NCBI GenBank assembly: GCA_949775045.1
Contig: OX459110.1
Coordinates: forward strand, 11,441,741-11,505,740
Direction of reading: 5' to 3'
Length of the DNA: 64,000 bases
DNA from: Metridium senile
Lineage: Eukaryota > Cnidaria > Anthozoa > Actiniaria > Metridiidae
Part shown: positions 3,405 through 61,540 of the stretch, piece by piece
Position numbering within the stretch: position 1 is the first letter of the stretch
Layout: every line of letters starts with the position of its first letter
Notes under the pieces: model-generated
What the model saw: the letters and a program-made list of their open reading frames with translations, nothing else
Databases searched by the model: none
Told to the model about the DNA's origin: nothing
Position numbers and translations under genes: made by a program

Positions 3405-3457
3405 TTTGGACCGCGACGTTTCGACTGCTACTGCTAGTCTTCATCAGACAGTGGGTA
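3405..3457 (-). ncRNA. Hammerhead ribozyme motif with intact core
   Basis: Read on the - strand: CTGATGA (3447-3441), a stem II hairpin closed by GACT and AGTC, GAAA (3422-3419), then C and the cleavage triplet GTC (3417-3415). The bases outside the core, ACTGT before and GCGGT after, can pair as stem I if G-U pairs are allowed. The stem III side is only the palindrome ACGT, so efficient cleavage would probably need a dimer. This is the short-stem-III form known from Penelope-like elements and retrozymes. Motif and geometry are seen; activity is inferred. Confidence 0.65.
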
Positions 3458-13196: not shown

Positions 13197-16100
13197 TTAT
13201 CCAGCACCTATAATGAAACAAATTATGCATGAGTCTTATAATGAAATATAACTTTTCAAAATACATATTGGTAAAATGGCAGGGGCATATTGAGTAGAAG
13301 ATTTGCGTAAATTGTGAAGCAAAGTTTGAGCGTCATTTAACTATTAAAAAGGTTAATTAGAAGGTGCAAAAACAATATGCATGGGTTTTTTCAGCAGCGT
13401 TGCCTTCAATAATCAACTTCAAAGTGGAACACCTCTATATACCGGACCCTCCGTCAATTCCGGAATTTTTCCGGCACGTGTCGTTTGGTCCCTAGTCCTC
13501 AATAAAACCGAACCCCAGATAATTTTAATGGGCTGTCCCGTATATAGAGGGGTTTCATTGTACTATGATTCATTACAAACCTTTTTTTCGAGCAGCAAGT
13601 CTCACAGAAAGCTGCTATTCTCTCTTCTTCGTAGGCGTTTTCCATGTTTTTCCCTTGATTCAAGTCAGTATTTCCTCTCATATCACCATCATCTTCATCA
13701 TCAAATGCATGTATTTCGTCATCATTCAATGCACTCATCGGTTCGATTAAAGGTTCGATAATGTTCTTTTTGTTCATTTGCGAGCTTTTGGAACCTCCTC
13801 TAGAATGACTGATCCTTCTTATATTGATGACATCATCTGCATTATCATTATCAGCATTAGCATCTTCAGTGAAATGAGGCTCAATCAAAGGTTTAACAAA
13901 TCTTTTGTTCGTTAGTTCACTTCTATAACTTTCTTCAGAATTGAAAGGAGGGCTTATGTTTCTTATTTTGATGCCGTCACTTGAATCATCGTTATCATTT
14001 GCGAGAGTTTCGAGGTCCATATCATCAGTTACTTCCCCATTTCTTCTCCTTGCGCTCATTCGCTCCAAACTGGCAAGCAACCGCTTTTTCCTTTCATGAT
14101 CGCTCTCTTTAACATCATTTTCGTTAAGGAATACTAGTCGTGGTTTCTCGATATCAGATTCATATGAGTCTATGTGGCCAACAGGTAAATCTATGCGTTG
14201 TTGTTCGTGTTGTATTCCTTGTGTTTCATCTATTCTTACTACTCCATTCATCGATTCATGTGTGTGATCTTCGTCACCGATGCTATCTTGAGTCTCTATA
14301 ACTGAAGGGAATGTTTCTCCTCTGTATTCCTCATTCTCGGATGGGGATTTAAGATTTTCAGATTTTTCTAGATCTTCATTCCTTGATGGATGATTTTCGT
14401 GAAATTCCCACCTTTTGCCATGGTGGACTAGTACTGGTGAATAGAATTCATAGTACCCTTCCTCTCCAGCTTTCTTATCTTCTTCCAGGGAATTTTCTTC
14501 TTGTTCTTCTTTCCATTTATCGTGATCTTTTTTATCTGATTCTCGTAAATCTTTATGTAACTGTCCTAGTTCGTGCACTTTTAAATTTTCAACTTGTGGA
14601 TGTTCTTTTTCGCGAACTACTAGCTCATGCCCTTTTTCGATGCCATGTTCCACATCGTCTTCATTTTGTCCGTGGGTTTCATGTTTGTGATTTTGTCGCT
14701 CCTCTTCCTTCTTCATATTCTCCTTCACATTTTCAAAGTGTTCCTCTCTTTCTTCTTCTTTATCGTGTTTGTGATTATCTTCTCCTCTTTCTTCTAGGCG
14801 TTCTTCATGCTCTTGTCCTTGCCCGATATAATTCTGTTCCCTGTTTCGACTTTCTATGTTTTTGTGATTTTCATGCTCCTGTTCCTTGTTCGTATTTTCC
14901 TTTGCATTTTCAAAGTATTCGTTCCTTTCTTCTTCTTCATTGTGTTTGTGATTTTCCTGCTCTCTTTCTCGTTCAGGCAGCTCTTCTGGCTTTTGTTCTT
15001 CTTCGTAGTGTTGTTCTTCGATATCATCTTCATTCAATGATTCCAGCGTCACTTCACGTTCTGTCTTGTCATTTTTGCTTGAATCTTGAACATCTTGCTT
15101 CTTTTCGTCTAGAGCAGAAGGATCAACATCTTCCAACTCATTCTTCTTTTCCAGTGGATGTGAATCTTCTTTCTCGACTAAATGATGATACGTTCGTTGT
15201 TCTTCCTTTTGCTTTTCTGTCGGATCAAGTTCTTGTAACTTCTCTTCGCGTTCTTTATTATGATGGCCATGCCCAGATTCAATTTGGTGCTCATAACTTG
15301 ATTTGTGAGAGTAATTATTTTTCTTGGATCCTTCCTCGTGAGATTGTCGATGCGTCTCATGTTCTTCTTCTTTTTCGCCTTCTTCTGGTAGATGAGGCTC
15401 ACGCAATATTTCCTTGTGGTGATTATAACCTTGAAGCTCGTTAGATTCTCCAAGGTTTTGATTAAAAGAATCATAGTTTTCTTCCTTTTTCTCGTGGTGA
15501 GCTGGAGGAGCAACCTTTCTTTCTTCTTCTTCTGGAGGGTGAATTTCTCGTAACATTTCTTTGTTCTCCCTTTCTCCCTTTTTTGTTTGTTTGTGTTCGT
15601 GGTTTTTCACGCCTTCATTTTCCTGCTTTTTCTCGTGGTGAGCTGGAGGAGCAACCTTTTTTTCTTCGTCTTCTTCTGGAGGGTGAATTTCTCTTAACAT
15701 TTCTTTGTAATCGCCATGTTTCTCCTTCTTTTTCTGTTCGTGTTCGTGGTGTTCCACACCTCTATTTTCCTGCTTTTTCTCGTGGTGAGCTGGGGGATGC
15801 ACCTCTCTTTCTTCTTCTTCGTCTTCTTCTGGAGGATGAATTTCTCTTAACATTTCTTTGTAATCGCCATGTTTCTCCTTCTTTTTCTGTTCGTGTTCGT
15901 GGTGTTCCAAGCCTTCGTTTTCCTGCTTTTTCTCGTGGTGAGCTGGGGGATGCACCTCTCTTTCTTCTTCTTCGTCTTCTTCTGGAGGATGAATTTCTTG
16001 TAACATTTCTTTGTAATCGCCATGTTTCTCCTTCTTTGTTTGTTCGTGTTTGTGGTGTTCCACGCCTTCGTTTTCCTGCTTTTTCTCGTGGTGAGCTGGG

Positions 16101-19100
16101 GGATGCACCTCTCTTTCTTCTTCTTCGTCTTCTTCTGGAGGATGAATTTCTTGTAACATTTCTTTGTAATCGCCATGTTTCTCCTTCTTTGTTTGTTCGT
16201 GTTCGTGGTGTTCCACGCCTTCATTTTCCTGCTTTTTCTCGTGGTGAGCTGGAGGATGAACCTCCCTTTCTTCTCCCTCGTCTTCTTCTCGAGGATGGAG
16301 CTCACGCAAAACTTCTTCGTGACTCTTTTTTGGTATTTCCTCGCTTTTCTTGTGACTAAGTTGATGAGCTTCGTCTTTTTGAATCTTCTTGATATGTACA
16401 ATAAACTCCCTTTTCTTGTTTTCTTTGTTATTTCTTTTTTCATTTCCTTCTTGTTCTCCCTTTTCGTCGACTTTCTTTTCTTTTTTGATTGGTGGATACA
16501 AATGACGCAGTTCTTCCTCAAAGTGGGACGGGTCATGTGACTTGTCATGTGACTTGCCATGTGACTTACCATGTGACCGTTGTTTAAGCAATTCTTCAAG
16601 CTCGTGCTCTGCATCTGGTTGGAGTTCTTGTTCATCGCTCACACTGCCCCGGCCTGTGTCGAGGATATTCTTGTTAAGCATTTCATTTAAAATGCGATCC
16701 ATCGTCCCTAAAAACAAATCGGCAAAATATATCAATAAAATTAACCATATAGGATATGATCGTTCTATCTTAAGACGATTGTAAGATTGATTATTGAAGA
16801 AAAAACTGTAATAGTTGTAAAATAATTATAATAATAGTTAGTTAAAACAGTTTGTAAAAGCTACAACTTACAAGGGAAATAAACATATCGAGAAAAAGGT
16901 TTGATTATCTATCACGTATATCATGAATAGAAATAAATAAATTTACACATAAACAAGAGAGTTTTTGTCTTCGAATTCTCGTGTGTCACATTTATTGTGT
17001 CACTCTTTAATTGGAAATTGTTTGTGTTATTTTTTTTTCTGTTATAAGTTCCCAATATCGTGTGTCACATTTATTGTGACATTCTTTAATTGTAAATTTT
17101 GTTTGTAATTTTGTGAGTTTTATTTGTTGAAGACATGTTATCAACAAAAACTAGAGATTTATTCTTCACTGAGATATTTCGTTCCATGGTGCCCTCCCAC
17201 TCACGAAAAGGCACTAACTCCCTTCATAGTAAGTTGGAACAGGTGATTGAGCAGTACGTCCAGTATCTATAGATCGAATCGTGGTATGATGACATCTTAT
17301 TGTTCTTTGACTAGCTAGCCTCGTGTTCACGTCGGAACAAATAGATTTTTCACATGTATGAGAGACTAGTCAGTCAAGAACAATAGTTATATTCAAATTG
17401 TTCGCCATTTTTCGATTCGGAGTATACGGTTGAATTCAATTTAAAATAATAAACTTTATAGGGTGACGATAAGCATAAATCGTTAGATTTTCATCGTGTA
17501 TAATTAAAAAAATACGTTGATTAATTGAAAATAGTTTATTTTTGAAAGCCGGGTAACAGACTCTATTTCACGCCCGAACGTTAGGGCAGATGACCCAAAT
17601 GTTGCCATAATAACAAATCTTAACATTTTTTAGATTAAAAAAAAAGTTCATATCTGCTTTATCGTTGATATTTTTGTTCCTTATCTATTTTGAGTAACTT
17701 CTAATAGAACTAATTCGTTATATTTGAGTAAAAGATTAAATTATTATGCGAACTAAGAACAGTGGTTTAATAACTAAACTTCCGACCAATAAAGTATGTT
17801 GATAGTCTTAGTAATTGAAAGTATTCACTTTTCTTGATTGCAATTCATATTTCGCCCTCAACATTTTCAATTCCGGAAACTGCGACAAGGGAAGATGTTT
17901 ACGAGATAATAATTCCTATTCTTTTTAGACTTGAGTTATTTTGCATGTTTGTAAATAATTAATGATTTACAGTAATTTTTTTTAGCCTTGATCCTCAGGG
18001 TGTATATATATTCCAAAACAACATTGCATTTCAATAACAAATTAAAAACTACAGAATCAAAATTTCTGTGAATTTGAATACATATTATGTCAAAAAGTTA
18101 CTAACAAGTTTTTTTTTATTATTATAATTCTTTTTCGTTGAATTTGAAGTTGCACCTGTACTAAGTTAAATCTCGATAATACAAAATAGATTTAGAAGAG
18201 ACCATCTTTTTCTTTGAAACCTATTTTGATCGATTCTAAATTTGTACAGATATTGGTTTTTTTTTCCAAAAAATTCATAATATGTGGATTCTATCAGCTG
18301 TGATTTTTTGTGTATATCTTTTAATTTATTTCTGTACCCGCATATCGAAAACTATAGATACGCAGATACACTGTCCTCATTTCAAATGTATTTTATAAAT
18401 AATGAAATTCATATCTTTATTTTTTCAGTTCCTCAAGCCTTAATATTTTATGTTCACATACATACATCCCATAGTAGATTTTTTCATTTAGACCAAAGTT
18501 CAATTAAACTGTTATTTGATTTGCTGTAATTTTAGCACTGAAAAATCATCAAAGTTTCGTTCCCGTCAATTTGATTAAGCCGAGTATGCTGTTTTCAAAG
18601 TTTAACATCGAACTATCTGTAATAAATCCCAAGAGCATTGCTTTAATTCATTTGTAAGATGCTGTCTTTAATATTTTAGTATTTGCGTTCACGCAATTAT
18701 TTGTAGATAAATTAAGCGAAGGTAAATTAATGAATGGACAAAATCACACTTAGAAAACAACCGCAAACGTAAAGTATTTTAACATTTTTTTATTTTTTTT
18801 TCAAGTCGCTAAACATACTAAGGGAATTTAGCAGAGGAATTTCAATGAAGAAGTAAAAAAATAAAGCTAAAAACCGAATTGGCGAACTGGCAGAAAACTA
18901 CGTTGTAATCATTTAAACACAGCCCATTGCCTTAACCCTCGCCAACAGTATTTAGTACTGAGATGATTTGATATTTAATTCTATATATATATATTTGTGT
19001 GCTTTTCTTGGTTGTTTTGAAAATACGGCGAAAAAGTACAAATAAATGGTGAAAAGAAGATAAGAATCATGTTATACGTCTATTTAACATACTATTTAAC

Positions 19101-26964: not shown

Positions 26965-28841
26965 CTTGACTGAACACAAGAGGAAAGAAATCAGTGGATA
27001 TCATAGAAATCATAAGCAATGAGGAAGTACAATATAGTTATACTGAGTACCTCTTTTTGATAAAATCATTTAGGACTTAAAACAATTCAGTTTGCAATAT
27101 AAAATGAATGATTGCAGCGACTCGAGGGTACAAACTGATCAGCCAAGATAATGAAAATCACAAGAAAGCAGGTAGCACTGGCCAAGAGAACACTGGGATA
27201 AAATGACCACCTCCTTTCATTGTGATCCTCTAAGATTAAAATATCGTTTCCAACTTGAAATATATATTTTTTAGCTTCCTTGACATAAGATGATAATTAT
27301 TTTACGATCCTCAAAACGTTTTCCGAGGCAAAGACGGCAGAGCTTATTATCAAGTCATCGGTAATCAATCTAAGGACTCCAATCTTTGCCTGAACAACTT
27401 TTAAATCAAGATCTCGAGGTTTAAATTAAGTTAATAAGTTAGAAGAGGAAATCAAAGGGAATATTAAACTTACCCAAGTGTTTGAAAAACACGTTTAAAA
27501 ATCGAGAAAGCCGTAAGTGACTTTCCGAAGTTACTGTAGGACGTTATTGACGTGCTCACTCAGTAAGTCTTATTTCATGGGTTGACACATTCCTATGCTA
27601 TGATCCATGGTACTACCAGGTAGGTACCAGTCCACTAACGTCTAATATCGACAAAACTTCAAAAACACATTTTCAAATAGCGACGCTTCAAATCCTAGAA
27701 AAGGAGCAACTTTTTCAACACTTTTTTTAAAAAACGCGGATATTTTGGTGAATAATGTTTTTAATTAAGGGGAAAAGGTTATTTGTAGGTTGATTTTGAT
27801 CAGTTTTTCAGTAAATAAAGTTCACCGTCGGCACCTGCTGGAATCAAATCTATCCTAAGACGGTCGTTTAGGTTCATTAAACTCTTAAGATAAATAAGTT
27901 CTCTCGAGTGGACTTTATTATCGAAATGAGCCAAGCTTTAGTGAATTAAACCACTCAAAAAACTGGCTAATTGGGTTAAATTGCGAAGTTTTTTTTAATA
28001 GAGGAACTAGTTCAAAAGGTTTCCAAGATGAAGTCGTCGTTCGGAGATGTTTTGTCAAAAATGGCGGACATCAAATATTCATGATCATGGTGGTCGTTGT
28101 GTTCTTGTTAAAACATAGGGAAAAGGTCAAATAAAAAAATACTTAGCAAACGCTCTTACGACAATGGCATCGTGTTAAAGGTGTTGGGGGCCAATTAATC
28201 AGACCAAAGCCCGTGATAGGGTTGCAAACCATTTTCTGCGGACAAAAATGGCGGGAAAATGGTAAAACAATAGCGCTTCAAAGATCAATCAACACGCGCC
28301 GCACAAGGAAAAGCGGTTATCTACGAAAGTTTATGGAAAAAAAAAAAAAAAAAAATAAGGATCCACGAGTTAATATACCTCCCATTTCTGACGCGAGCTG
28401 AACAAGTTACTTTAATTGATAAAAATGTTGTAATTCACGAGTTAACAAAATATGCTTACTGCCTGCATCATGACAATAATCATTTCCAAAGTGCATGATA
28501 TAAGAAAGGCAAAAAACGTCATATCACTAGTAAAGTGAGTTTTGATTAGAAACAAATAAAGTCAAAATATATGCTAGGCATTTTGGAAGCAAAGAAAATG
28601 AAATAGAAAATGGTTTTGCCGGCTAGATGATTAAATGAGCAAAATCCGAAGACAAGTATATTAGATCCACCTTCATTACAGTCTACTCGTCGCCTGATGA
28701 AGACTAGCAGTAGCTGTCCAAACGTTGCAGTCTAGCCTATGTACAGCTGCCTTCGTGTGACAAATGAACATCATATTATTTAAAGGAATTATTATCATAT
28801 ATTTACTAATACTGGTAAGAAAAATAACAAACATGTGACCT
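26965..28841. other. Intergenic upstream of the LamG gene
   Basis: No further gene is supported. Three ATGGCGG-containing spots (28063, 28248 and, farther on, 29848 on the - strand) are YY1-like. A decayed hammerhead-type motif lies at 28683-28732. An A-run is at 28337-28355. Confidence 0.4.
28683..28732 (+). ncRNA. Decayed hammerhead motif, same stem II as the 3.4 kb copy
   Basis: CTGATGA is intact, followed by the GACTAGCAGTAGC hairpin, but the second core block reads CAAA instead of GAAA and the cleavage triplet is GTT. Only weak stem I pairing is possible. Probably inactive, but clearly from the same family as 3405-3457 (-). Confidence 0.5.
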
Positions 28842-33395: not shown

Positions 33396-36300
33396 TTACA
33401 CAACTATTTCATGCTTAACATTCATATGCTTGCTTAAATCACTCTTGTATATAAATGATTCATCGCAAATCCGACATGGGATAATATGTTTCTCAATAAA
33501 GTGATCATGAAATGTTTCCAAAGATTTGAATGTCAGTCTGCATTTCTTGCATTTGACTCTTCCACGACAATGAATGCACAGTTTAGGAAGGTGCCGTAAG
33601 ATCTCTTGTTCTCCTAGCATCTTTGGTATCGTAAATGTTTTACTGCAGTTTTCACAGTTGTGGATCACAAAGCACTTGTGAGTGCTTAAGTGGATGGACA
33701 GACGGCCACTATTGAGGAAGATCTTTGGACATTCACTACACTTGATGCCATTGGTTGTAGTATGCTTTTGCCTGTGATGTCTGGCATCTCTCAAGCTGTT
33801 TATATGCACACCGCATGAATAGCAAGGCCTGAATGACTTGTTGTCTGTTTGAGTAGATGATTCTGTGAAACAAATTTTGACTGCAGGCTTTTTAACTGCA
33901 GGCTTTTTAACTGCTGGTTTTTTATCTTCCGTTTTTTCGCCCCCAAAGACTTTCACTGTATGAACCTGACTTTCTGAAATCTTTGCAAGAGCTCCTGCTG
34001 GCATTGGAAGACTGGGGCGAGGTGATTTTGCCACAACAACTAGCTGACTTACGTAAAACTCAATATTATTGTTAATAAGTTTGAAATCTCCAAAGTATAC
34101 TTTGGATCCTGCTACTGGAAGTTTCAATGGTTTGGGTAGTTGAACCGTGACAATGTTTTCTTTAAAAGGATGGTAAGTCATGGTATTTTCGTTGCTTTTT
34201 GAAAGTGCTGACAGACCCTTAGGCATAAGGCTGACCATCCCACGATCCCATTCAAATGATAGCACAAGTCTTCTGTGATTCTTGATATAACTGTTGCTCT
34301 GTACAACAATTGGTGGGTACTTGAAGACAAACACTTCTTCTTGTTTATAGGGAATGGTAGTATTCAAGATCTTAGCAATGACTTGTCGCTCACTATACAT
34401 AGGAACTGCAAGGAAAGAACAAGCACCATTCTCCATCTCAACACAAACAGGAACAAGTTTATGAAAGTTGCTCAAAGAGGTTGAGTTACCACCATTACTT
34501 GAGGTAACAATTCGCCAAGATAAATCTACAAAACTTGCATGGACTTCAGTTAGGCTTTCAGGGCAGTTGTGATGATGTGGCAGCAGAACAACTCTCTCAT
34601 TTACAGGTTGAACATATTTAACACTTGAGTTCACTTGTTCTACATCAGCTTGGGTGTATTCAATATTTACAGGGGATACTTCTTTCACAAATTCATTAGG
34701 ATTTTCATCAGCTGAAGTGTAGGATTCTTCAGAAGCAGTTGATGTCCTGGAAGAGGTGCTCTCCATAGGAGATGAACAGGTGGAACTCACTGGTGAGTTG
34801 GAGTAACTAGACTTGGGATATTCCAAGACAATATTTGATTCAATATCTTTAAGCCGATTCTTTTTCTGGATGTCTAGTTCACCGAGCACATCAATTAACC
34901 AAGCGGCTGTCTGCACAGACAAGTCCCCAATAACTGATTGTTTGCCAGTTGAGTCTTTCAAAGCCTCAGCTATTGCATCAACGTTTTTCACAGTTTCATT
35001 ACATTTAGATAATGATGATTTGGTATTTTTGTGAGTAAAAAACACGGCTCCGGATGAAAGATTGCCATCTGAGACAAACTTAATGGTTGGTGTTGGAAGA
35101 TCATCACACCAATCATCGGTCATCTTGTTGGATTGATCACTAAGTGTAGATGGTGAAGGAGGCTGAGATGGTATCACAGGAAGACTAACCATTGTCGGCA
35201 GGTCATTTGGTAACAGAAATTTCCTTGGTCTACTCGTTGGCTTTCTGATGGTAGTATGACACTTTTTTCTGGTGGTAGTATGACACTCTGTAGAAGTTCC
35301 AACCGAAGAAGTTCTCTTGTTAGTTGGCAAAATGTCTCTGGGAACAGCAATTTCGCTTGATTCTTTCAGCATGCTGTCATTTAAAGACATGGCAGCTGAG
35401 GATGTACATGTAGCTTGACTTACTCTGTTTGAACATGAAGGTAAAGATGGTAGAGTGTGTTCTAACAAGCTGAAACGTTGTTGAATCCCAACACTCATTT
35501 CTTCAGATGTTTTTGAAGGGAGGGTATCATGAGCAATGTTTTTTCTTTTCATGGGTCTTCCTCTTCCTCTTTTAATTTTAAGTTTGGTACTTCCTTCAGT
35601 GTCATTAGATGCATCTTCCACTAATTCTGATATTAAAGAGGGATTATCAACAGTATCATTGTGGTGCTCTTCAGAACCTAACACATCTACTACCACTGTT
35701 TCATCAGAATTATCACCTATAATGCCATTGTCATTTAAAGAACTTGCTAAAAACTCTGCTTTATCTACAGAACATTCAGTGGTGACATCATTTTTAGTTC
35801 CTGATTCTACCACATTTGTTGAAAGATCTTTTGATGTTTGTGTCTCTACAGAGCAATCATTTGAGACTTCATTATTATTTTCAGAAACAACAGGAGCCTC
35901 CATTGACTTTTTTTGCAGCAACCAAGGCATTTGCTTTCGAGGTCTACCTCTTCCTCGTTTCGGTCTGTCTTTTGCTTTTTTCTTCTTCCTCTTCTTCTTT
36001 GGAGGTTTCTTCTCTGTATCTGGCATCTCAAAATGAAAAACTTTAAGAGTAGTGACCTTACCGCTTCTCAATATGTGGTTATTAACAACTATTCTTGATC
36101 TATTCTCTCCCTTCACAACATCGTTATCATGAACTTCTAGTTCCTTTCTAAGGTCTTTGCTTTCTGTTGTCATGACAACATCATGTGTTTCTATAGGTGT
36201 TGGTGCAGTCGTTGTCATAGACACTGTCATAATGCCATTTTGTGGTGCAACTGGACAATTCTGTGTTGCCATAGAAACTGTTGTTGGAACATTCTCTGTT

Positions 36301-39300
36301 GTCATGGAAACAGTTTTAGTAGTTTCTTTACTGTTTTGAAAGAATCTTTGAGTTGTGAACAAATTATCAATTGTTGGCATAGAAACAGTTTGTGTTTGAG
36401 TATTCTGTGCTGCTATGGGAACAGACATAGTTGCTACAGGAGCTTTTCTGGTCGCCACAGTAACATCCTTAGTTACCGATGTATCAAAATATCCCTGATT
36501 GTTGTTGCTAGGTGTATGTGTTTCTTTTAGTTTCTTCTGTTGTTGTATGGCATCTGTGTAGTTCTTTCGTTTCCTAGATGATACAAGTGGTATTGCCAAT
36601 TCTTTGATGATATCACTGAGACAGTACGATTTCTCTGCTAGCAGCTTTAAGGGGAAGTCTGCATCCACACTGAGTTCTTTGTCTCTTGCAGGTTCTGTCA
36701 AAATCACAAAAAATCAAATGTAAGTAGACATCATAAATTAGGAAAAACTACAATTATTATTTTTGAACAATTGTGATAAAATCATTTTAACACTGCTGAA
36801 ATTCTGCTACTAACCCCCTGAACCCCTCCCCCATCCCCCTTGGCAATGTTGAGGAGGGAGTCATTGTTTGGTGCTTGATGGTTGACCTATCAATGTGCTA
36901 TCGTTCTACACCAACATTGTTGTGGGTTGAAGGGGGTAATATTATTTATACTTACACAAAATACAGTGGTCAGAAATTACTAACATCATTGCATTGTGTC
37001 AACTACTTTTGACAAAGATTATAGCTTAAAATTCCTATCAATAAATATCAATTTAATATTTAAGATAAAGGAAATAAAGCTAATTCCACAGGCACATGTA
37101 ACATACAAAAACTTTCTATTAGTAAATCATTTTGATAATTGTGACCTTCATGTAAAAAATGTTTATTAGTGAAAAATTGAATAAGCAAATGAATGCAACA
37201 ATTTTTAGCTTTTTATTCATCTGAAAAAATGTTTATTAATGAAAAATTGAATAAGCAAATGAATGCAACAATTTTTAGCTTTTTATTCATCTGAATACTG
37301 TTACTGTATGTTGTTCGGCTTATTAGAGCATTAGATAGCATTTTAAAGATCCTTCAACTACTTTATAACTAGAAACAAATAATTGTGGGCTATCCCAGGT
37401 TGAGCATCTTGTTAAGATCTTGTAAGACCATCCAAGATCTTACTAAAACCTAGGCAAGCTAATGTCTTGGAAGGATCTTGAGAAGATCATAATAGCTTTT
37501 ATCGTAGATGAGCACAGCATTCCTGCGAACCAGCGGTATCGCCATGGGCGTAACATGGAAACGAGATTCATGGTACGCTCATGGTGATACCGCTGTTTTT
37601 TTGGATTCACATGCTCATCTACAATAAGAGCTACATTGTTGTATTAAATCTTGGCAGAAACTTGAAAATTCATGCAAGTTTTTTTCAGATTGAGGGCTAC
37701 ATGCCAAGATCTTGCCAGGATCTTACATGGATTGGTAAGATGTTCAATGTGGGATACTACATCGTGTAGTTTAGAGTGAATAAATAGAAAGGGTACCTTG
37801 TTGATTTCTAGAATTTTCTTTGATGCAGCATGGTATTATTGGTGAGTTGAAGCTGCAGCCTTTAGTCTTGGGACACTTGAAAACAAAACCAAATGAAGAT
37901 TAATGACAATTCATAATATCTACAGTTTAATACTACATTTATTTTCCCTTTACTCCAACAAAGGGCTAAAACTCGAAATGTCAGTAAAGTTAAGTCAACT
38001 TTTTTTACGGTGTTACAAATTTCATTATTAATAATTATTACCTATCGACTACATTTATTTCATTAATAATTCTAATCAAATAGGTAAACAAACTTATAAA
38101 ACTCTAATTATTATGCTAATTATTCATAACAAATTGACAAAAGAAATCACAATAGTGGAGGAAGTTGTATATCTCAACAAAAGTGACAAATTGCTATATA
38201 TTGCTATATTGTGGCCTTGAAAAACATTGCAAGGTTCTAAGAGAGTCAGTCTGTTCATCAATCCGCTAAATGAAAATGAGAAGTGTGGTCAATAAAAAAC
38301 TACGGGAAAACACCATAATATGACATCTAGATGATACAAGAAAATGCAACTAGCCAATCAGCGCGAAGCTAACAAGCTCAAGTTGTTAGCATAACCCATG
38401 ACAGGAAAAAATTGCGCACCAAAACCTGCCTCAGTAAAGTAGGGTACAAATCATTTTTTTCGGTCAGAAAAATCGAAACTAAAACTTTTAAAAATCAATA
38501 TGCAACAATATTTACAACATGATATCACCATTATCGTCAATAAAATAAAATCATTCTTGAAAATGTAAAGCATCAAATAAACTTTTTTTAATACGTCGTG
38601 GCTCCCCTCCCTCGAAATGATAATTGGTCAGTGCGGGTTTTGCATAGGTTTAGAAGCCATTAGGGACGACGGTCAACTTCACGACTTCAAAAGTTCATTG
38701 AATCGCGTTCAAGTCCATAATATCTCAAGAGAAGCCATTCTAAATCTTTTTCGTTAGTTCTCGTTTCTTCTAGAAGAACAAGTGATGCCAGCTGTGCAGC
38801 TCTGACAAGTTGAAATGAGTCGAAACAAAATTCGCAGTTATAAACACGACTCTGCGAACCGTGATGAAAGGAGCTCGACTAAAGCATGTATATATTATAT
38901 CAAGGTGCAAAGAAGTTTCACATGAACATTGCACTCTTAATCCGTTGTATATTTTCTTCTTTCAATATATTCAAAGACCTTTGACACGTACAGTGTACTG
39001 TTTTATGAAAATATCGAAATACATGTACATGCGAATGTTGGTTGAATGAACGGCGAGCTGGGGGTTTTCCCTTCGTTTTATTTATGTTTATATACAATGC
39101 CACATTACAAAAATGCACAGGCTCAAGGCTAACAACTTTGGTGAATTCATATGCAGGCCTGGTCGCAAATACATTACCTAGATTACATTAGCATGGCACT
39201 ATGCAAATGTCTTTTAAGACCATAGTATGATGGCTCAGTGCTCACCTTTCAAGATGACGGCCTCATTGTTAACCGGAACAGTTAAAAAAGTAAAGAATAG

Positions 39301-41727: not shown

Positions 41728-41900
41728 TACTCTGTAGAAAAGCTAAAGCTCGAAACGTCCGTAAACAGTAGTTAATTTAACACTTTTTACGGTGTTACAA
41801 TTTTATTCTATTACCTATCACTTATATCAAACACTGACGCAGCCTATACTAGTTTACTCGCTAGTTTCCATTTATATTTTCATACTATTTTTTTTTTTTT
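41728..41900 (+). repeat. Decayed hammerhead-type repeat, family F copy 3, with full tail
   Basis: The cleavage side GAAACGTC is intact; the 5' core reads CTGTAGA. The tail continues through ACGGTGTTAC, TATCAAACACTGACGCAGCC and TAGTTTACTCGCTAGTTTCC, giving the longest version of the family unit. A poorer, truncated relative precedes it at 41565-41610. Confidence 0.6.
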
Positions 41901-43490
41901 TTTTGTTTCATTTCAACCACAAACTCAAAAACATCTAAGATACCATGCTAATGACTTGGTTTACTGGTCAGCTAAACTAATCTTGACTCTAAGATTAACC
42001 AATCAGAGTCAAGCATTTAATTGGAGGATCGGCTTTTCTATAAAGTGTATAAATCACTTGATTTTATCATTTGGGGCTTTTAATCTCCAGTACAGAAGCG
42101 ACCTTCAAATCGCTCTATCCGGCAAATATCTGGATTTAAAAAGTTGGAATAAGGTAAGACAATTTCAAAGTTCTTAGTAAGCGAGTAGTTATGCTGCTTG
42201 TTTTATCTTCAGTGTCAGATTCAATGTCAAACAGTTTATTTACCTGTTTGTGTTGTAAGCCTTTGGGGAAAGTTTGAAATGTTTGAATTAGTTTTGTATA
42301 CGCAAAGCACGTGTAAGTTTATGCTCTACCCACTGAGCTTGGATTACCCTGAGAGGCATCGGTCTCGTCACTCGAGAAAAACACACTCTCCTTGTCAGGC
42401 TAGCTTATGTTACACTGACGCAAACATTTTCAATATCTCAAAGTCAGTCTTTCTACAAAAATGCACGTCAGTGCAAGAGAAAATGATATTTTATTAAGCT
42501 TTACTAGCTGAACTGGACCACTTCAGATTCCTCTTATTTTTTTGTCAAATAATCAATGAATTTCTAAGTTTTACTGAGTAATGAGTAATGCAACCACTAT
42601 ACCATGATCAAGTGATCCGATTGATCAGCTCTTCGAAAACAATATTAATTAACTTTCTGGCTGATCAATTTTGACAGATGCTATTAAGAACTATAGTGTA
42701 CTATTGCATTTTTTTGCTAATATGATCAAGTGTTCGATACCGAGCCGGCTTCGAAAACAGAAAGCACATAATCTACTTTCTGAATTAATTTTTAATAATT
42801 TTGTCAGATGATCAAGTTGGTGTTGTATTGCACTATTAAAGCTTAGTAGTAATGTACCATCGATTAATTAATAATAGATCAAGTGTTCGATTGATCAAGT
42901 CTTCCAATTCTTGTCAAATACAAAAGTTGAGTAATAAATTTTATCACATGACATGAAATGATCGTTATTTTCTACTGCACTATTTCTTAAGAATCTTCAA
43001 TCGGTTATGTAACAAATTCGGAATGTTCGAAAGATGTTATGTCTTCGATTACTCATCAATTAAGTGTCTTAAGTCCATTTGATTTAAAATATTTTAATAA
43101 CCTCTAAGAATAGATTCCAGATTAAGTCAATTATCGAGTCTAAAGGAATGCATATATGATTATCCTTTGAAACCTATATTGATGCATGCAAGTAGATCAT
43201 GTCAGAAAGACCAGAGGTGTATGTGCAGCACTTAAAATTAATTGATCCCAGGGGGCCTACTCAAAACAGCTCTTAAAGATATGATTTCTTTGAAAACTAT
43301 TGATGCATGCAGATCAATCATGTCAGATCAGACAGACCGGCCAGAAATGTAGGTCATTCGTCCTGCAGCACTTCATCCTACTAGGACTTAGGGTAAAAAT
43401 ATCGGGTATGCTCGTCAAAAACACCTGTTAAAAATACCCGAAAATGTCAATTAAAACGGGCGTGGTGCCGATGATATTTAATCCCTAAGA
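41901..43490. other. Mostly featureless; a promoter-like spot near 42.0 kb
   Basis: CCAAT (about 41998-42003) and TATAAAG (42039-42045) precede a strong donor AAG|GTAAGA at 42153, with an acceptor (TTTTATCTTCAG) only 59 bases on. The ORF across this pair is open, but a reversed tRNA A-box-like relic (plus strand GCTCTACCCACTGAGC, about 42321) lies in it and the product looks non-coding. Farther on, TGATCAAGTG and TTCGATTGATCA are repeated several times (42.6-42.9 kb). Confidence 0.3.
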
Positions 43491-45400: not shown

Positions 45401-45948
45401 TTAAATAAATATTAGCGATGATGATTTATAGAATACGTGAGGATATCGTAAGCTTGATTGGTATCGTTTACGCTTTATTACTGCAACTCCATTACTACAG
45501 TACGGGATGTGGAAGTATAATATGTTGAACAGTAAATATGGCGCCTTCGCTTTGTGGGTTCTATATTGGTTGATTGATATAGATGGGATAATGTGATGAT
45601 CAGAAGTAATAGAATATGATTACAGTTTCTAAGAGAATTTAATTGGACTCCCAGTGGCTGTTTATAAACATTCCAAAAAATAATTAAACTGAGTGATGGT
45701 TCCTTTTTATGAAACAGTATTATTCAGTCTTTAGTGGGCCGGGCTTTCAATTTCAGTTTTATATTTCAGTTTATTTGAATCGCATGTCAAAGATTAACTT
45801 AAAGTGCCTATATCACCCACACGGTATTTAGTTTTTGAAAATCCTTTACAAAAAGCAAATAAATAACTGCTTATTTTCCCTAATGTTTTACTTATCTCAA
45901 GATGGTGTTCCTATGATGACGTCATAGACTCGGACAGGGTCTTCAGAT
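45401..45948. other. No recognised feature
   Basis: AT-rich intergenic DNA with no supported gene. Confidence 0.4.
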
Positions 45949-46192
45949 CACAGGCAGCCCAAGCAAATCACTTGTATTCAGTGGATTTGTTTTAATTTTT
46001 TTTTTTTCTAGTAATATATTTACTAGTGGGGGAGAAATTATAAATATGGCTTAAAACTAGCTAAAAATCATCCAAAAAGTATTTAAATACATCACAACAA
46101 CTACAGACAAAGTTTAGTAACATTTTATTGAAAAAAAAAAATAAATTAAAAAAAATCCACTGAATACAAGTGATTTGCTTGGGCTGCCTGTG
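45949..46192. mobile_element. CACAGG-type MITE with 7 bp target duplication
   Basis: Ends CACAGGCAGCCCAAGCAAAT and inverted ATTTGCTTGGGCTGCCTGTG. It is flanked on both sides by TTCAGAT (45942-45948 and 46193-46199). Length 244 bp. Same family as 30295 and 46955. Confidence 0.85.
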
Positions 46193-46302
46193 TTCAGATA
46201 CTGAAATAAAGTCAACGGAAAATGAAAACTCCATTTTTTTTTTTTTCAACTCAAAGAAGCTTGCGCGCGTACAACATTCAAATGCGCGTGCCACAACCAT
46301 AA

Positions 46303-46352
46303 CCACCATCACTGATGAAGGTCCATGATGATAGACCGAAACGTCTGATACT
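46303..46352 (+). ncRNA. Hammerhead ribozyme motif with intact core
   Basis: CTGATGA (46312-46318), stem II GGTC/GACC with a 10-base loop, GAAA (46338-46341), C, then GTC (46343-46345). Stem I pairs ATCA just before the core with TGAT just after the cleavage site. All invariant bases are present. Stem III is the minimal ACGT palindrome, which favours a dimer. The region after the cleavage site is repeated at 46612. Confidence 0.68.
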
Positions 46353-46668
46353 TTCAAGTTTTCAAGTCAGAGACAAAACGTAAAAAATAATAAGCTTTAA
46401 ATATATGATAGATAGATTTGATCTAGACCCTAAAATTTTAGGTGATATAAGAGCTAGCACTTTAATCAATGAATAATGGAATGAACGAACAAATCATATT
46501 TGAATTCTAAATGGATGGATCTATATATATAGCTGCATGAAAAAATAAATAGCTGTAAAAAATGAATGAGCGATTGAGTGAATGAACAAACAAATGATTA
46601 AATAAATGAATTCTGAAACGTCTGATACTTTAAAGTTTTCAAGTCAGAGACAAAACGCAAAAAAAAAT
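46334..46668 (+). repeat. Direct repeat of the ribozyme 3' flank, spacing about 278 bp
   Basis: GAAACGTCTGATACTTT with TTTTCAAGTCAGAGACAAAACG occurs at 46338 and again near 46616. The second copy lacks the upstream CTGATGA block. Tandem monomers of a few hundred bases sharing a hammerhead are typical of retrozymes and Penelope-type insertions. Confidence 0.65.
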
Positions 46669-46954
46669 AAAAAAAAAATAAATGAATAATGAAGGATTCT
46701 ATTGCAGGTAACCTAGCCTATAATATTGAAGTATCACCCATAAACAAAATCGATAATGAGATGCATGTCTCCATTTTGTCTGGTTCGCTTAATTTTAATT
46801 AAAATTTTGAATAAAGTGTGCAAAATATTAGGTTAGCCCGAGGGTCAATATGGTGTGACTCCTCCTCCTTTCAGTACATATGCGCCTTGTGTCAAACAGT
46901 ACAGCGGTGCTAGATAACGTGAAACTGAAGTAGATAGATAAACCTTTATTTAAG

Positions 46955-47225
46955 CACAGGAAGCCCAAGCTCATCACTTGTGATCTTTTACAGTAAATGT
47001 ATGGAGTCGCGAGATATCCTTTCGCTGTGACTCAAATATACAATATTAAAAACGTTTTTTTACGTAGATAGTTGTGTATAATTGTTTTCAAGTCTGTGAC
47101 CGACTAGTTTTAGCTCAATTAGAGCGATTTTGATTATTGTATATTTGAGGCACAGCGAAAGGATATCTCTCGACTCCATACATTTACTGTAAAAGATCAC
47201 AAGTGATGAGCTTGGGCTCCCTGTG
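46955..47225. mobile_element. CACAGG-type MITE with about 90 bp arms and 7 bp target duplication
   Basis: Ends CACAGGAAGCCCAAGCTCAT and inverted ATGAGCTTGGGCTCCCTGTG. The arms stay complementary for about 90 bases (GTAAATGTATGGAGTCGCGA, ATATCCTTTCGCTGTG). Flanks are ATTTAAG on both sides (46948-46954 and 47226-47232). Confidence 0.88.
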
Positions 47226-47499
47226 ATTTAAGCAGGTTAATCCATTGAGAATACTAGGTATTCTGTTATTAACAGGAGCCCTAAAATAATAACAATATAT
47301 ACAAAACTAAATAATTATTATATGCTATATCTATGAAATATGGTTAAAAGCTAGACTCTATTTATGATAAATATCAAACTATTGAAAATTTAAACGTACT
47401 ATGAATATTCATATGTAAAAAAAGTAAAGATTATTTCAATATAATAGAGTATTACAACTGCAATTAGCAGCTATAACACGTCAAGTCATGCAATATAAA

Positions 47500-49671: not shown

Positions 49672-49870
49672 AAAAGCGTCTCCGACGAAGGACTAAAGCT
49701 CGAATCGTCAAAAAGTCAGCATTTTTTACGGTGTTACAAATTTCATTATATTACCCGTATCGTTTATATCAAACACCGACGCAGCCTATACTAGTTTACT
49801 CACTAGTTTCCACTCACTCCGGGACGCCTATACTAGCTTACTCACTAGTTTCCACTCACTCCGGGACTCA
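49672..49870 (+). repeat. Decayed hammerhead-type repeat, family F copy 4
   Basis: The core is altered (CCGACGA, GAATCGTC). The tail reaches GACGCAGCCTATACTAG, and a 48 bp piece (CTATACTAG(T/C)TTACTCACTAG, CCACTCACTCCGGGAC) is duplicated in tandem. Positions 49871-50400 hold nothing recognised. Confidence 0.6.
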
Positions 49871-50409
49871 CTGTAATACTTTGAGAGAAGTACTTTAATG
49901 ATGAATGAAATACAACACGCACTTTTACACATATAGATACAAGCCTCACGAAACCATCAATAAACTGAAGATGAATAACAGCGGCGAGATCTTAACAGAA
50001 ATTAAAGAACTTTAAAGTTTGAAGTAACAAAATATTGATGTTTTTTATTGTAGACAGCCAATACATTTTGATATTTTAAGAAAACGTTCAAAAACTAGAA
50101 TAAAAAAACATGCTACTTAGTCAAAAATTTAATTAAAAGATCTGCATGAAGAGGAATTTATTTTTGTATCCTGATTTGAAGAAAAGGGATAATAATCTGT
50201 GTGATATATCTTTTATTGAAAACTAAGGTGTTATCTTGCACGGAAACAGACGGAAATTAGTACAATAGTCTATAAATCAGGAAATGAAGGAAATGAAGTG
50301 AAGTGAATATTCAAGTTTAATAACCTTCAAAGAAATAGCTAATCTATACGAGGCAAGTGTATCAGGAAACAATCATAGTATGGCAGTCAGAGTTCAATTT
50401 AGGTTGCGG

Positions 50410-53591: not shown

Positions 53592-53785
53592 AGTTAAGCT
53601 TTGTCCAGAGGAGGGTGTTCACGGCTCGCAAAGGATCATGGGCGAGAAACGAGTTTTCGCTTCAGTTGTGTTTGAATGTTGTCGCATGCGAAGCTCAGTG
53701 AAGCTCAAATGGACGATCGCGTACTTTGAATTTTGTCTACTTGTTTATTTGTTGTTGCTATATGTTGATATCTATTATTGCTTTT

Positions 53786-54005
53786 ACTCTGACGAAGGGC
53801 TAAAGCTCAACGTCAGTAAAGTTAACATTGTTTACGGTGTTACAAATTTCATTCTATTATACCTATCGTTTCTATCAAACACCGACGCAGCATATACTAG
53901 TTTACTCGCTAGTTCCCCTTTATAATTTAAACAGTCAGTTACTGATCGTTTATATTTAAAACACCGACGCAGCCTGTACTAGTTTACTCGCTAGTTTCCA
54001 TTTAC
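53786..54005 (+). repeat. Decayed hammerhead-type repeat, family F copy 5
   Basis: CTTTTACT and AGTAAAG give a perfect stem I and the CTGACGA block is intact, but two bases are lost at the second core block (GCTCAACGTC where GCTCGAAACGTC is expected). The full tail follows, with a second partial tail copy at 53945-54005. Confidence 0.65.
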
Positions 54006-54043
54006 CATTTAATAATAATAATAATAATAATGATAATAATAAC

Positions 54044-54102
<59 letters not shown>

Positions 54103-54157
54103 TAATAATATTATTAATAGTAATAATAATAATAATAATGATGATGATGATGATGAC

Positions 54158-54205
<48 letters not shown>
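54006..54205. repeat. (AAT)n and (GAT)n microsatellites
   Basis: ATA/AAT triplets to about 54135, then GAT triplets. The polySer/polyLeu ORF is an artefact. A hairpin (TATATAGCGCTATTTCC with GCTCATAGCGCTTTACA) follows at 54215-54262. Confidence 0.92.
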
Positions 54206-54585
54206 ATGATGAAGTGCCTCATTTATATAGCGCTATTTCCTAAGCTCATAGCGCTTTACAACTCTACAGTACCATTTCCATTGCTATGGCGGATCCGCTA
54301 TTGCCACATTTTGTTTTGCAGTTCTCAGTTAAATTTACAGTAATTTCCAATTGCAGAGATTGTAGGAATGAGTCACTCATATGTATAAAACATTAATCTA
54401 TTTCCCATCACCAGAAAGTTGAACCGTCACGCCCACGAACACAAATGTAAGTGTGTCGAATACTGGCTAAGGAGATTAGTCGGTAGCTAAACTATGATTT
54501 ATTTATTTATGATATTTTAGACAAGTAACTCGTTGACCAGTCGCAGCAATTTTGTGTTATGAAATGATTGTAAACGAGATTGTGC

Positions 54586-58978: not shown

Positions 58979-59017
58979 CTGTGTAAAACACTTAATAAGG
59001 AAAATATAGGATTAAAA

Positions 59018-59070
59018 AAGTCGGACTATGTTTCGGTGTCATCATGCATGCTGAGGCCCTCGTCAGATTT
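59018..59070 (-). ncRNA. Hammerhead-like motif with two-pair stem III
   Basis: On the - strand: CTGACGA (59066-59060), a long stem-II region GGGCCTCAGC...ACACC, GAAA (59034-59031), then CATAGTC, which can form a two-pair stem III with an ATA loop before cleavage at GTC. The core bases are intact but stem I pairing is weak, so activity is doubtful. Confidence 0.45.
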
Positions 59071-59204
59071 AGATATTCAAAGTTGTGTGTATGATTATGA
59101 TCGTCGCGGAGAAATAAGCAATTTATGCAATTGCAATTATAGAAGCCCGAAAAAAAAAAATTCGGGACTTCAACTTCAAAGTTAAACCTGACTTTTGACT
59201 TTAG

Positions 59205-59520
59205 AATCAATGGAAACTTGCACGGAGTGTATAAACTAGTATAGTCTGCGTCGGTGTTTGATATAAACGATAGGTAATATAGTGAAATTTTGTAACACCG
59301 TAAAAAATAGAAATAGAAACTAGCGAGTAAACTAGTATAGGCTGCGTTGGTGTTTGATATAAACGATAGGTAATATAGTGAAATTTTGTAACACCGTAAA
59401 AAATAGAAATAGAAACTAGCGAGTAAACTAGTATAGGCTGCGTCGGTGTTTGATATAAACGATAGGTATTATAATGAAATTTGTAACACCAAAAAATGTT
59501 GACTTAACTTTATGACATTA
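59205..59520 (-). repeat. Three tandem family F tails, period about 96 bp
   Basis: + strand GAAACTAGCGAGTAAACTAG, TAGGCTGCGTCGGTGTTTGA, AAACGATAGGTAAT and TTTGTAACACCGTAAAAAAT recur starting near 59211, 59316 and 59412. The hammerhead part is absent. This shows the tail can amplify in tandem. Confidence 0.75.
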
Positions 59521-61487: not shown

Positions 61488-61540
61488 ATTCACTCTTGAA
61501 AATGACGCCCGATGGCGTCGAAACGTCGAGTAAAAACCTT
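61488..61540 (+). ncRNA. Decayed hammerhead motif, third stem-II family
   Basis: ACTC before and GAGT after pair as stem I. The first core block reads TTGAAAA instead of CTGANGA. Stem II is a perfect GACGCC/GGCGTC hairpin with a CGAT loop, and GAAACGTC is intact. Probably inactive. Confidence 0.45.

Follow-up and report, generated by a model that had tools for sequence, protein, structure and literature searches.

The hammerhead motif in the window (the whole 64,000-nt stretch of DNA that was analysed) very probably belongs to a genomic copy from a Penelope-like element (PLE) family, truncated on its 5' side so that only the element's 3' end is present: the end of a GIY-YIG-type ORF, the hammerhead and a tail (Table 1). 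The initial annotation had proposed a mobile RNA unit of either retrozyme-like or Penelope-like kind. Dispersed 5'-truncated copies with fixed 3' ends, flank duplications, head-to-head pairs and upstream coding sequence support the second of these; the retrozyme or active mobile RNA reading is unsupported, the family having coding sequence 5' of the ribozyme. The window contains two 5'-truncated insertions and the retrozyme or tandem-unit reading therefore fails. Two short insertions can mimic a tandem ribozyme array, and what might be taken for an active mobile RNA unit becomes an ordinary PLE remnant.

Table 1. Coordinates of the PLE copies, hammerheads and putative target-site duplications in the window.
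Feature	Position	Strand	Basis or remark
Last codons of endonuclease-type ORF	46263..46328	+	translations of the window and of longer copies
Minimal type I hammerhead, no stem III	46308-46349	+	predicted cut after 46345
PLE copy 1, 129 bp, 5'-truncated element 3' end (endonuclease ORF end, hammerhead, tail)	46263..46391	+	copy alignments and flanks
Putative target-site duplication AAGCTT, left of copy 1	46257..46262	+	abuts copy end exactly
Putative target-site duplication AAGCTT, right of copy 1	46392..46397	+	abuts copy end exactly
Tail region past the cut site, 3' end common to copies	46346..46391	+	
PLE copy 2, 64 bp, tail-only insertion, homologous part 46615-46670	46612..46675	+	without CUGAUGA and stem II
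Putative target-site duplication AAATAAATGAAT, left of copy 2	46600..46611	+	12 bp, low-complexity surroundings
Putative target-site duplication AAATAAATGAAT, right of copy 2	46676..46687	+	12 bp, low-complexity surroundings
Second minimal hammerhead, perfect core, other family, stem II GACU/AGUC	3415..3447	-	
Decayed relative of the 3447 hammerhead	28694..28726	+	89.7% identity over 39 nt
Decayed third hammerhead family, 2 core mismatches, 6-bp stem II, 4-bp stem I	61496..61527	+	

A dispersed family with fixed 3' ends

We searched the window's own assembly (389 Mb, 169 contigs) for further copies. The segment 46270-46400 yielded at least 49 genome matches at E ≤ 0.001 (40 of 189 candidates scored), and the exact 23-nt tail word CAAGTCAGAGACAAAACGTAAAA yielded 60, as compared to 0 for the reversed control; an exact search for the tail word in viral contigs gave 0 matches. 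Thirty-eight loci with copies were fetched from the similarity search, followed by 36 more via the exact tail word. Copy alignments show a common 3' end and scattered 5' ends. The 3' ends fall into two classes ~30 nt apart: some copies end near ..AATTAATAA and others are extended, with the ~30-nt extension present in 23 of 69 tails under a strict pattern. We match this extension to the optional 30-40 bp tail of PLEs, which has been attributed to two reverse-transcription start sites (PMC11167929). In many copies the extension reads TCCTGACTGCAATTTCAG, which resembles a 3' splice site. Introns near the 5' end are known in PLEs.

Across 75 loci there are 24 pairs of neighbours within 800 bp; 21 of them are head-to-head and 3 direct, with 0 in tail-to-tail arrangement. 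A single locus (L080) accounts for two direct pairs and the window for the third. Opposed-tail loci (L014, L017, L019, L043, L044, L084) often carry the ~30-nt extension on one tail only, and such one-sided extension may tell which target strand primed first. Extension on one of two inverted pLTRs is described for rotifer Penelope elements in PMC3846280. Flanks were compared for 46 single copies, drawn from 89 tails after exclusion of the 21 head-to-head loci, L080, four repeat loci and near-end tails. Shared flanks of at least 8, 9 and 10 bp occur in 11, 9 and 6 of these copies, as against 4.9%, 0.8% and 0.2% of mismatched-pair controls, while at 6 bp or more there is little difference (26/46 versus 41% in controls). 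The family shows an optional tail, head-to-head neighbours and target-site duplication with 5' truncation, as PLEs do.

Alternatively, these copies might be an independent family of short non-autonomous elements that descends from a PLE and has master copies of its own, and not be by-products of truncation. This is very unlikely: many copies are very short, 51 of the 75 loci have a single tail and a subfamily (8/39 aligned copies) has a common change after GUC, all in its favour, but the starts are scattered and there is no common 5' end.

Coding sequence upstream of the hammerhead

The PLE assignment also draws on coding sequence 5' of the hammerhead. In L048 a single frame, open from WYSLKDPK onward, reads across the hammerhead to a stop in loop II; its final codons are retained in the window, where the stop TGA (46326-46328) falls in loop II of the hammerhead. 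The ATG within CUGAUGA starts a frame of only 22 codons. Eight copies, extended by ~9 kb upstream, have up to ~330 nt in common with one another and then different ends. An open frame on the minus strand of L049 (145-405) contains YYGQTERSLTTRIKEH and GHEINFKDVKIID..RLFLEAW, and a Pfam search with this short piece gave no match. One longer, decayed element (L061, refetched as L091) carries endonuclease, RT-like and N-terminal pieces in order and in one orientation. Its endonuclease piece matches Pfam GIY-YIG with E = 0.0037 and 18.0 bits, below the curated cut-off of 22.6. The RT-like pieces, further upstream in the same orientation, include GSPVSELLADLVMEY and WWVRYVDD, which we take to be RT motifs, recognised by eye in one decayed copy; they match no RT family in Pfam. 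Because the Pfam match is sub-threshold and the RT motifs were judged unaided, the odds of the PLE reading are lowered.

Neither PDB nor protein-database searches with the element pieces returned a relative. With the L091 pieces as queries, tblastn found endonuclease coding beside many other fetched copies, and at E ≤ 0.001 listed nothing within the window. L091, the one long and decayed copy examined, has one tail and one hammerhead-like site, and no intact or pLTR-ORF-pLTR copy was seen.

Two probably separate insertions in the window

The downstream repeat aligns 46338-46393 with 46615-46670 (53/56 nt identical) at a spacing of 277 bp, and not the 278 bp reported initially. A duplicated 3' flank therefore exists as claimed; it was said to start after the cut site, but it begins at GAAACGTC, 8 nt 5' of that site. 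The CUGAUGA and stem II are not repeated, only 7 of 26 positions being identical at the 277 offset. A putative target-site duplication accompanies each of the two copies (Table 1); the one at copy 1 is weak alone because 41% of the mismatched control pairs show 6-bp matches as well. For the second copy we favour a separate insertion over a further tandem unit.

The retrozyme alternative would have a tandem unit of ~277 bp whose transcript cleaves itself and becomes circular. We regard it as extremely unlikely. Although the direct-repeat spacing falls in the 150-450 bp range of metazoan retrozymes, copy 2 is without half of the ribozyme, the putative duplications are separate for each copy, direct neighbours make up only 3 of the 24 pairs, stem III is absent and coding sequence lies upstream. 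Metazoan retrozymes consist of tandem non-coding 150-450 bp units with a helix III hammerhead, and neither attribute was found here. We also considered a half-dimer, in which the core of copy 1 would cut the GUC of copy 2, and rejected it: the pairs exist and the fold is 9.15-10.09 kcal/mol uphill.

The hammerhead motif and its state across copies

The hammerhead motif in copy 1 is real, and its catalytic core is complete as first described. Stem I pairs AUCA (46308-46311) with UGAU (46346-46349) over 4 bp. The 5' half of the core is CUGAUGA (46312-46318) followed by A (46319), and stem II (GGUC 46320-46323 with GACC 46334-46337, 4 bp) closes a loop at 46324-46333. The 3' half consists of GAAAC (46338-46342) and GUC (46343-46345), and because these adjoin directly there is no stem III. 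All parts of the defining pattern CUGANGA...GAAA...UH, with stems I and II and helix III almost absent, are found at this site. For the exact spaced core the window has one occurrence, as compared to 0.01 expected. A strict descriptor (perfect core plus both stems) finds two window sites (46312-46345 on the plus strand and 3447-3415 on the minus strand) and none in 40 dinucleotide shuffles of the window; allowing up to 2 core mismatches gives 3 window sites versus 1 across all 40 shuffles combined.

The covariance-model check proposed initially gave no support, Rfam returning zero hammerhead matches for the full 64 kb at gathering thresholds and zero for 46200-46800 relaxed to E ≤ 10. In isolation the 50-mer has a different fold as its predicted MFE structure, with unremarkable stability (z -1.12), and forcing the hammerhead pairs on window RNA costs 1.05-2.31 kcal/mol, varying with the stretch folded.

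Among 39 aligned copies, CUGANGA is kept in 30, GAAA and UH in 32 and both halves in 26, so that genome copies partly conserve the core, as the initial reading required. Fifteen of the 39, the window copy among them, also keep 4/4 pairs in both stems. Another count (25/45 intact) covers only BLAST matches spanning the motif and leaves out 7 of the 8 copies of the subfamily noted above. This subfamily reads TATT after GUC and has 2-3 of 4 stem I pairs, which speaks against strict upkeep of the fold.

Co-option of the hammerhead by the host at the window site has next to no chance: in its favour, every core base and both 4-bp stems are kept here, as in the 15 copies just mentioned, but the outer fifth stem II pair present in most copies is lost (C-A), and nothing in the window distinguishes this copy from dispersed ones. 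Chance resemblance, to which the lack of an Rfam match might point, can be practically dismissed, since perfect core and stems occur in 0/40 shuffles and other families show the same core with different stems.

Insertion 5' ends around the predicted cut site

The in vivo role of PLE hammerheads is called unknown in PMC7761336. Cleavage of the RNA ahead of copying should make insertion 5' ends cluster just after GUC. We considered a footprint in which copying halts either at the self-cleaved end, whose first nucleotide follows GUC, or on reaching the 3' boundary of stem II, and 5' ends gather at these places; if true, this footprint would be in vivo evidence, left open by the literature, of ribozyme folding and cutting during retrotransposition. 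We mapped the 5' ends of 60 exact-tail copies, 56 after removing repeat loci (L034, L057, L072, L086), with L079 and two L080 places that have a common left flank counted separately. The starts are scattered from about -285 to +14 around the predicted cut site. Two of the 56 start exactly after the cut (L055, L078) and 7 lie within 0..+4; 5 lie in -10..-6, four of them at -8, the stem II edge, and 6 in +10..+15. The second window copy, which is outside the 56-copy set, also starts at -8, and three short second copies in the first set (L014, L027, L045) start exactly at the position equivalent to 46346 by BLAST. An apparent start at 0 in L059 was judged an alignment artefact. There is no convincing cut-site peak in the 56 copies, and a pile-up is unproven because start density rises towards the 3' end anyway. 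We consider such a footprint unlikely at present. With dozens of very short insertions whose 5' ends can be mapped, the family offers material for a genome-wide test of PLE hammerhead cutting in vivo.

Other hammerheads and neighbouring features

Beyond copy 1, the window contains one further perfect hammerhead and two decayed ones (Table 1). Applied to 240,294 bases of fetched loci, the descriptor gave 25 matches, 21 of them assigned to the window family by a stem filter; window-family copies are counted more than once here because the loci partly overlap. The remaining 4 comprise one window-family match (L022), one locus fetched twice (L021/L051) and L056, and the latter two loci therefore represent two more hammerhead families, with minimal hammerheads of different stems at L021:374 (-) and L056:119 (+). 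Many animal genomes contain thousands of minimal type I hammerheads, and the extra families in the window and loci fit this published abundance (PMC7761336). L043 has an inverted hammerhead-like pair (237-278 and 350-391), separate from its tail-family copy.

Hairpin-like elements at 45943-46198 and 46949-47231 flank the region, and their inverted arms measure 65 nt (94%) and 104 nt (93%). The ends of the two have ~27 nt in common (89% identity), suggesting a single family of miniature inverted-repeat transposons. On the minus strand, 33396-36713 is an open frame of 1105 codons that ends in a C2H2 zinc finger, and its protein has one database match at 100% and another at 42% over 52% of its length. 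A 1108-codon open frame at 13499-16825 (-) is highly charged and internally repetitive, and a Pfam search with it was without match. A peptide like SNTDAAYTSLLASF recurs in translations of 41776-42177, 49697-49873, 53593-53925 and 53960-54343 (+) and of 58992-59468 (-), which points to a DNA repeat, either dispersed or in tandem.

Proposed mechanism

By analogy with the PLE of Anolis (PMC11167929), the element RNA would be copied at a nicked target, with reverse transcription beginning inside the tail. Such a start would fix the 3' ends, and an early end of copying would make the 5' ends vary. The frequent head-to-head pairs may reflect priming on both target strands, or self-priming, by the same analogy. 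The copies in the window, 129 and 64 bp long, would each stem from one such event.

The ribozyme in the PLE transcript would be expected to cut after GUC. Cutting would probably be poor for a single ribozyme because stem III is missing, and could improve when a second copy joins it in a dimer or when the element's protein is present. According to PMC11167929, the Anolis hammerhead cleaves only with the element's protein present, its mutation leaves insertion in vitro unaffected, and its cutting was not seen in RNA-seq. The sequence GAAACGUC contains the palindrome ACGU. In the dimer model, an ACGU palindrome lets two copies form a joint stem III. Cutting by the window hammerhead, and any role for it, is inferred.

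Comparison with known systems

Minimal type I hammerheads of PLEs were reportedly described by Cervera and de la Pena in 2014 and by Lunse et al. in 2017. As portrayed in PMC7761336, they have, like the window family, CUGAUGA, stem II, GAAAC and GUC joined, a short stem I and no helix III, and occur as dispersed copies associated with PLE remains; the window family differs in having the upstream ORF's stop codon within loop II. The Poseidon PLE of Anolis carolinensis, PAc, likewise has stems I and II only and two 3' ends, and its GIY-YIG has a putative counterpart here; its ORF starts at stem II whereas the ORF of the window family ends in loop II (PMC11167929).

The Penelope elements of Adineta vaga share head-to-head inverted copies, an optional tail and target-site duplications with the window family, and are longer with recognisable pLTRs, whereas the copies here are mostly short stubs (PMC3846280). 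Metazoan non-LTR retrozymes resemble the family in their type I hammerhead, low-GC repeat and animal-type genome (PMC7229834); in contrast, the family here has no tandem units found, no stem III and protein-coding sequence upstream. A PLE remnant with a minimal hammerhead is an established kind of element, and the family described here adds to that kind.
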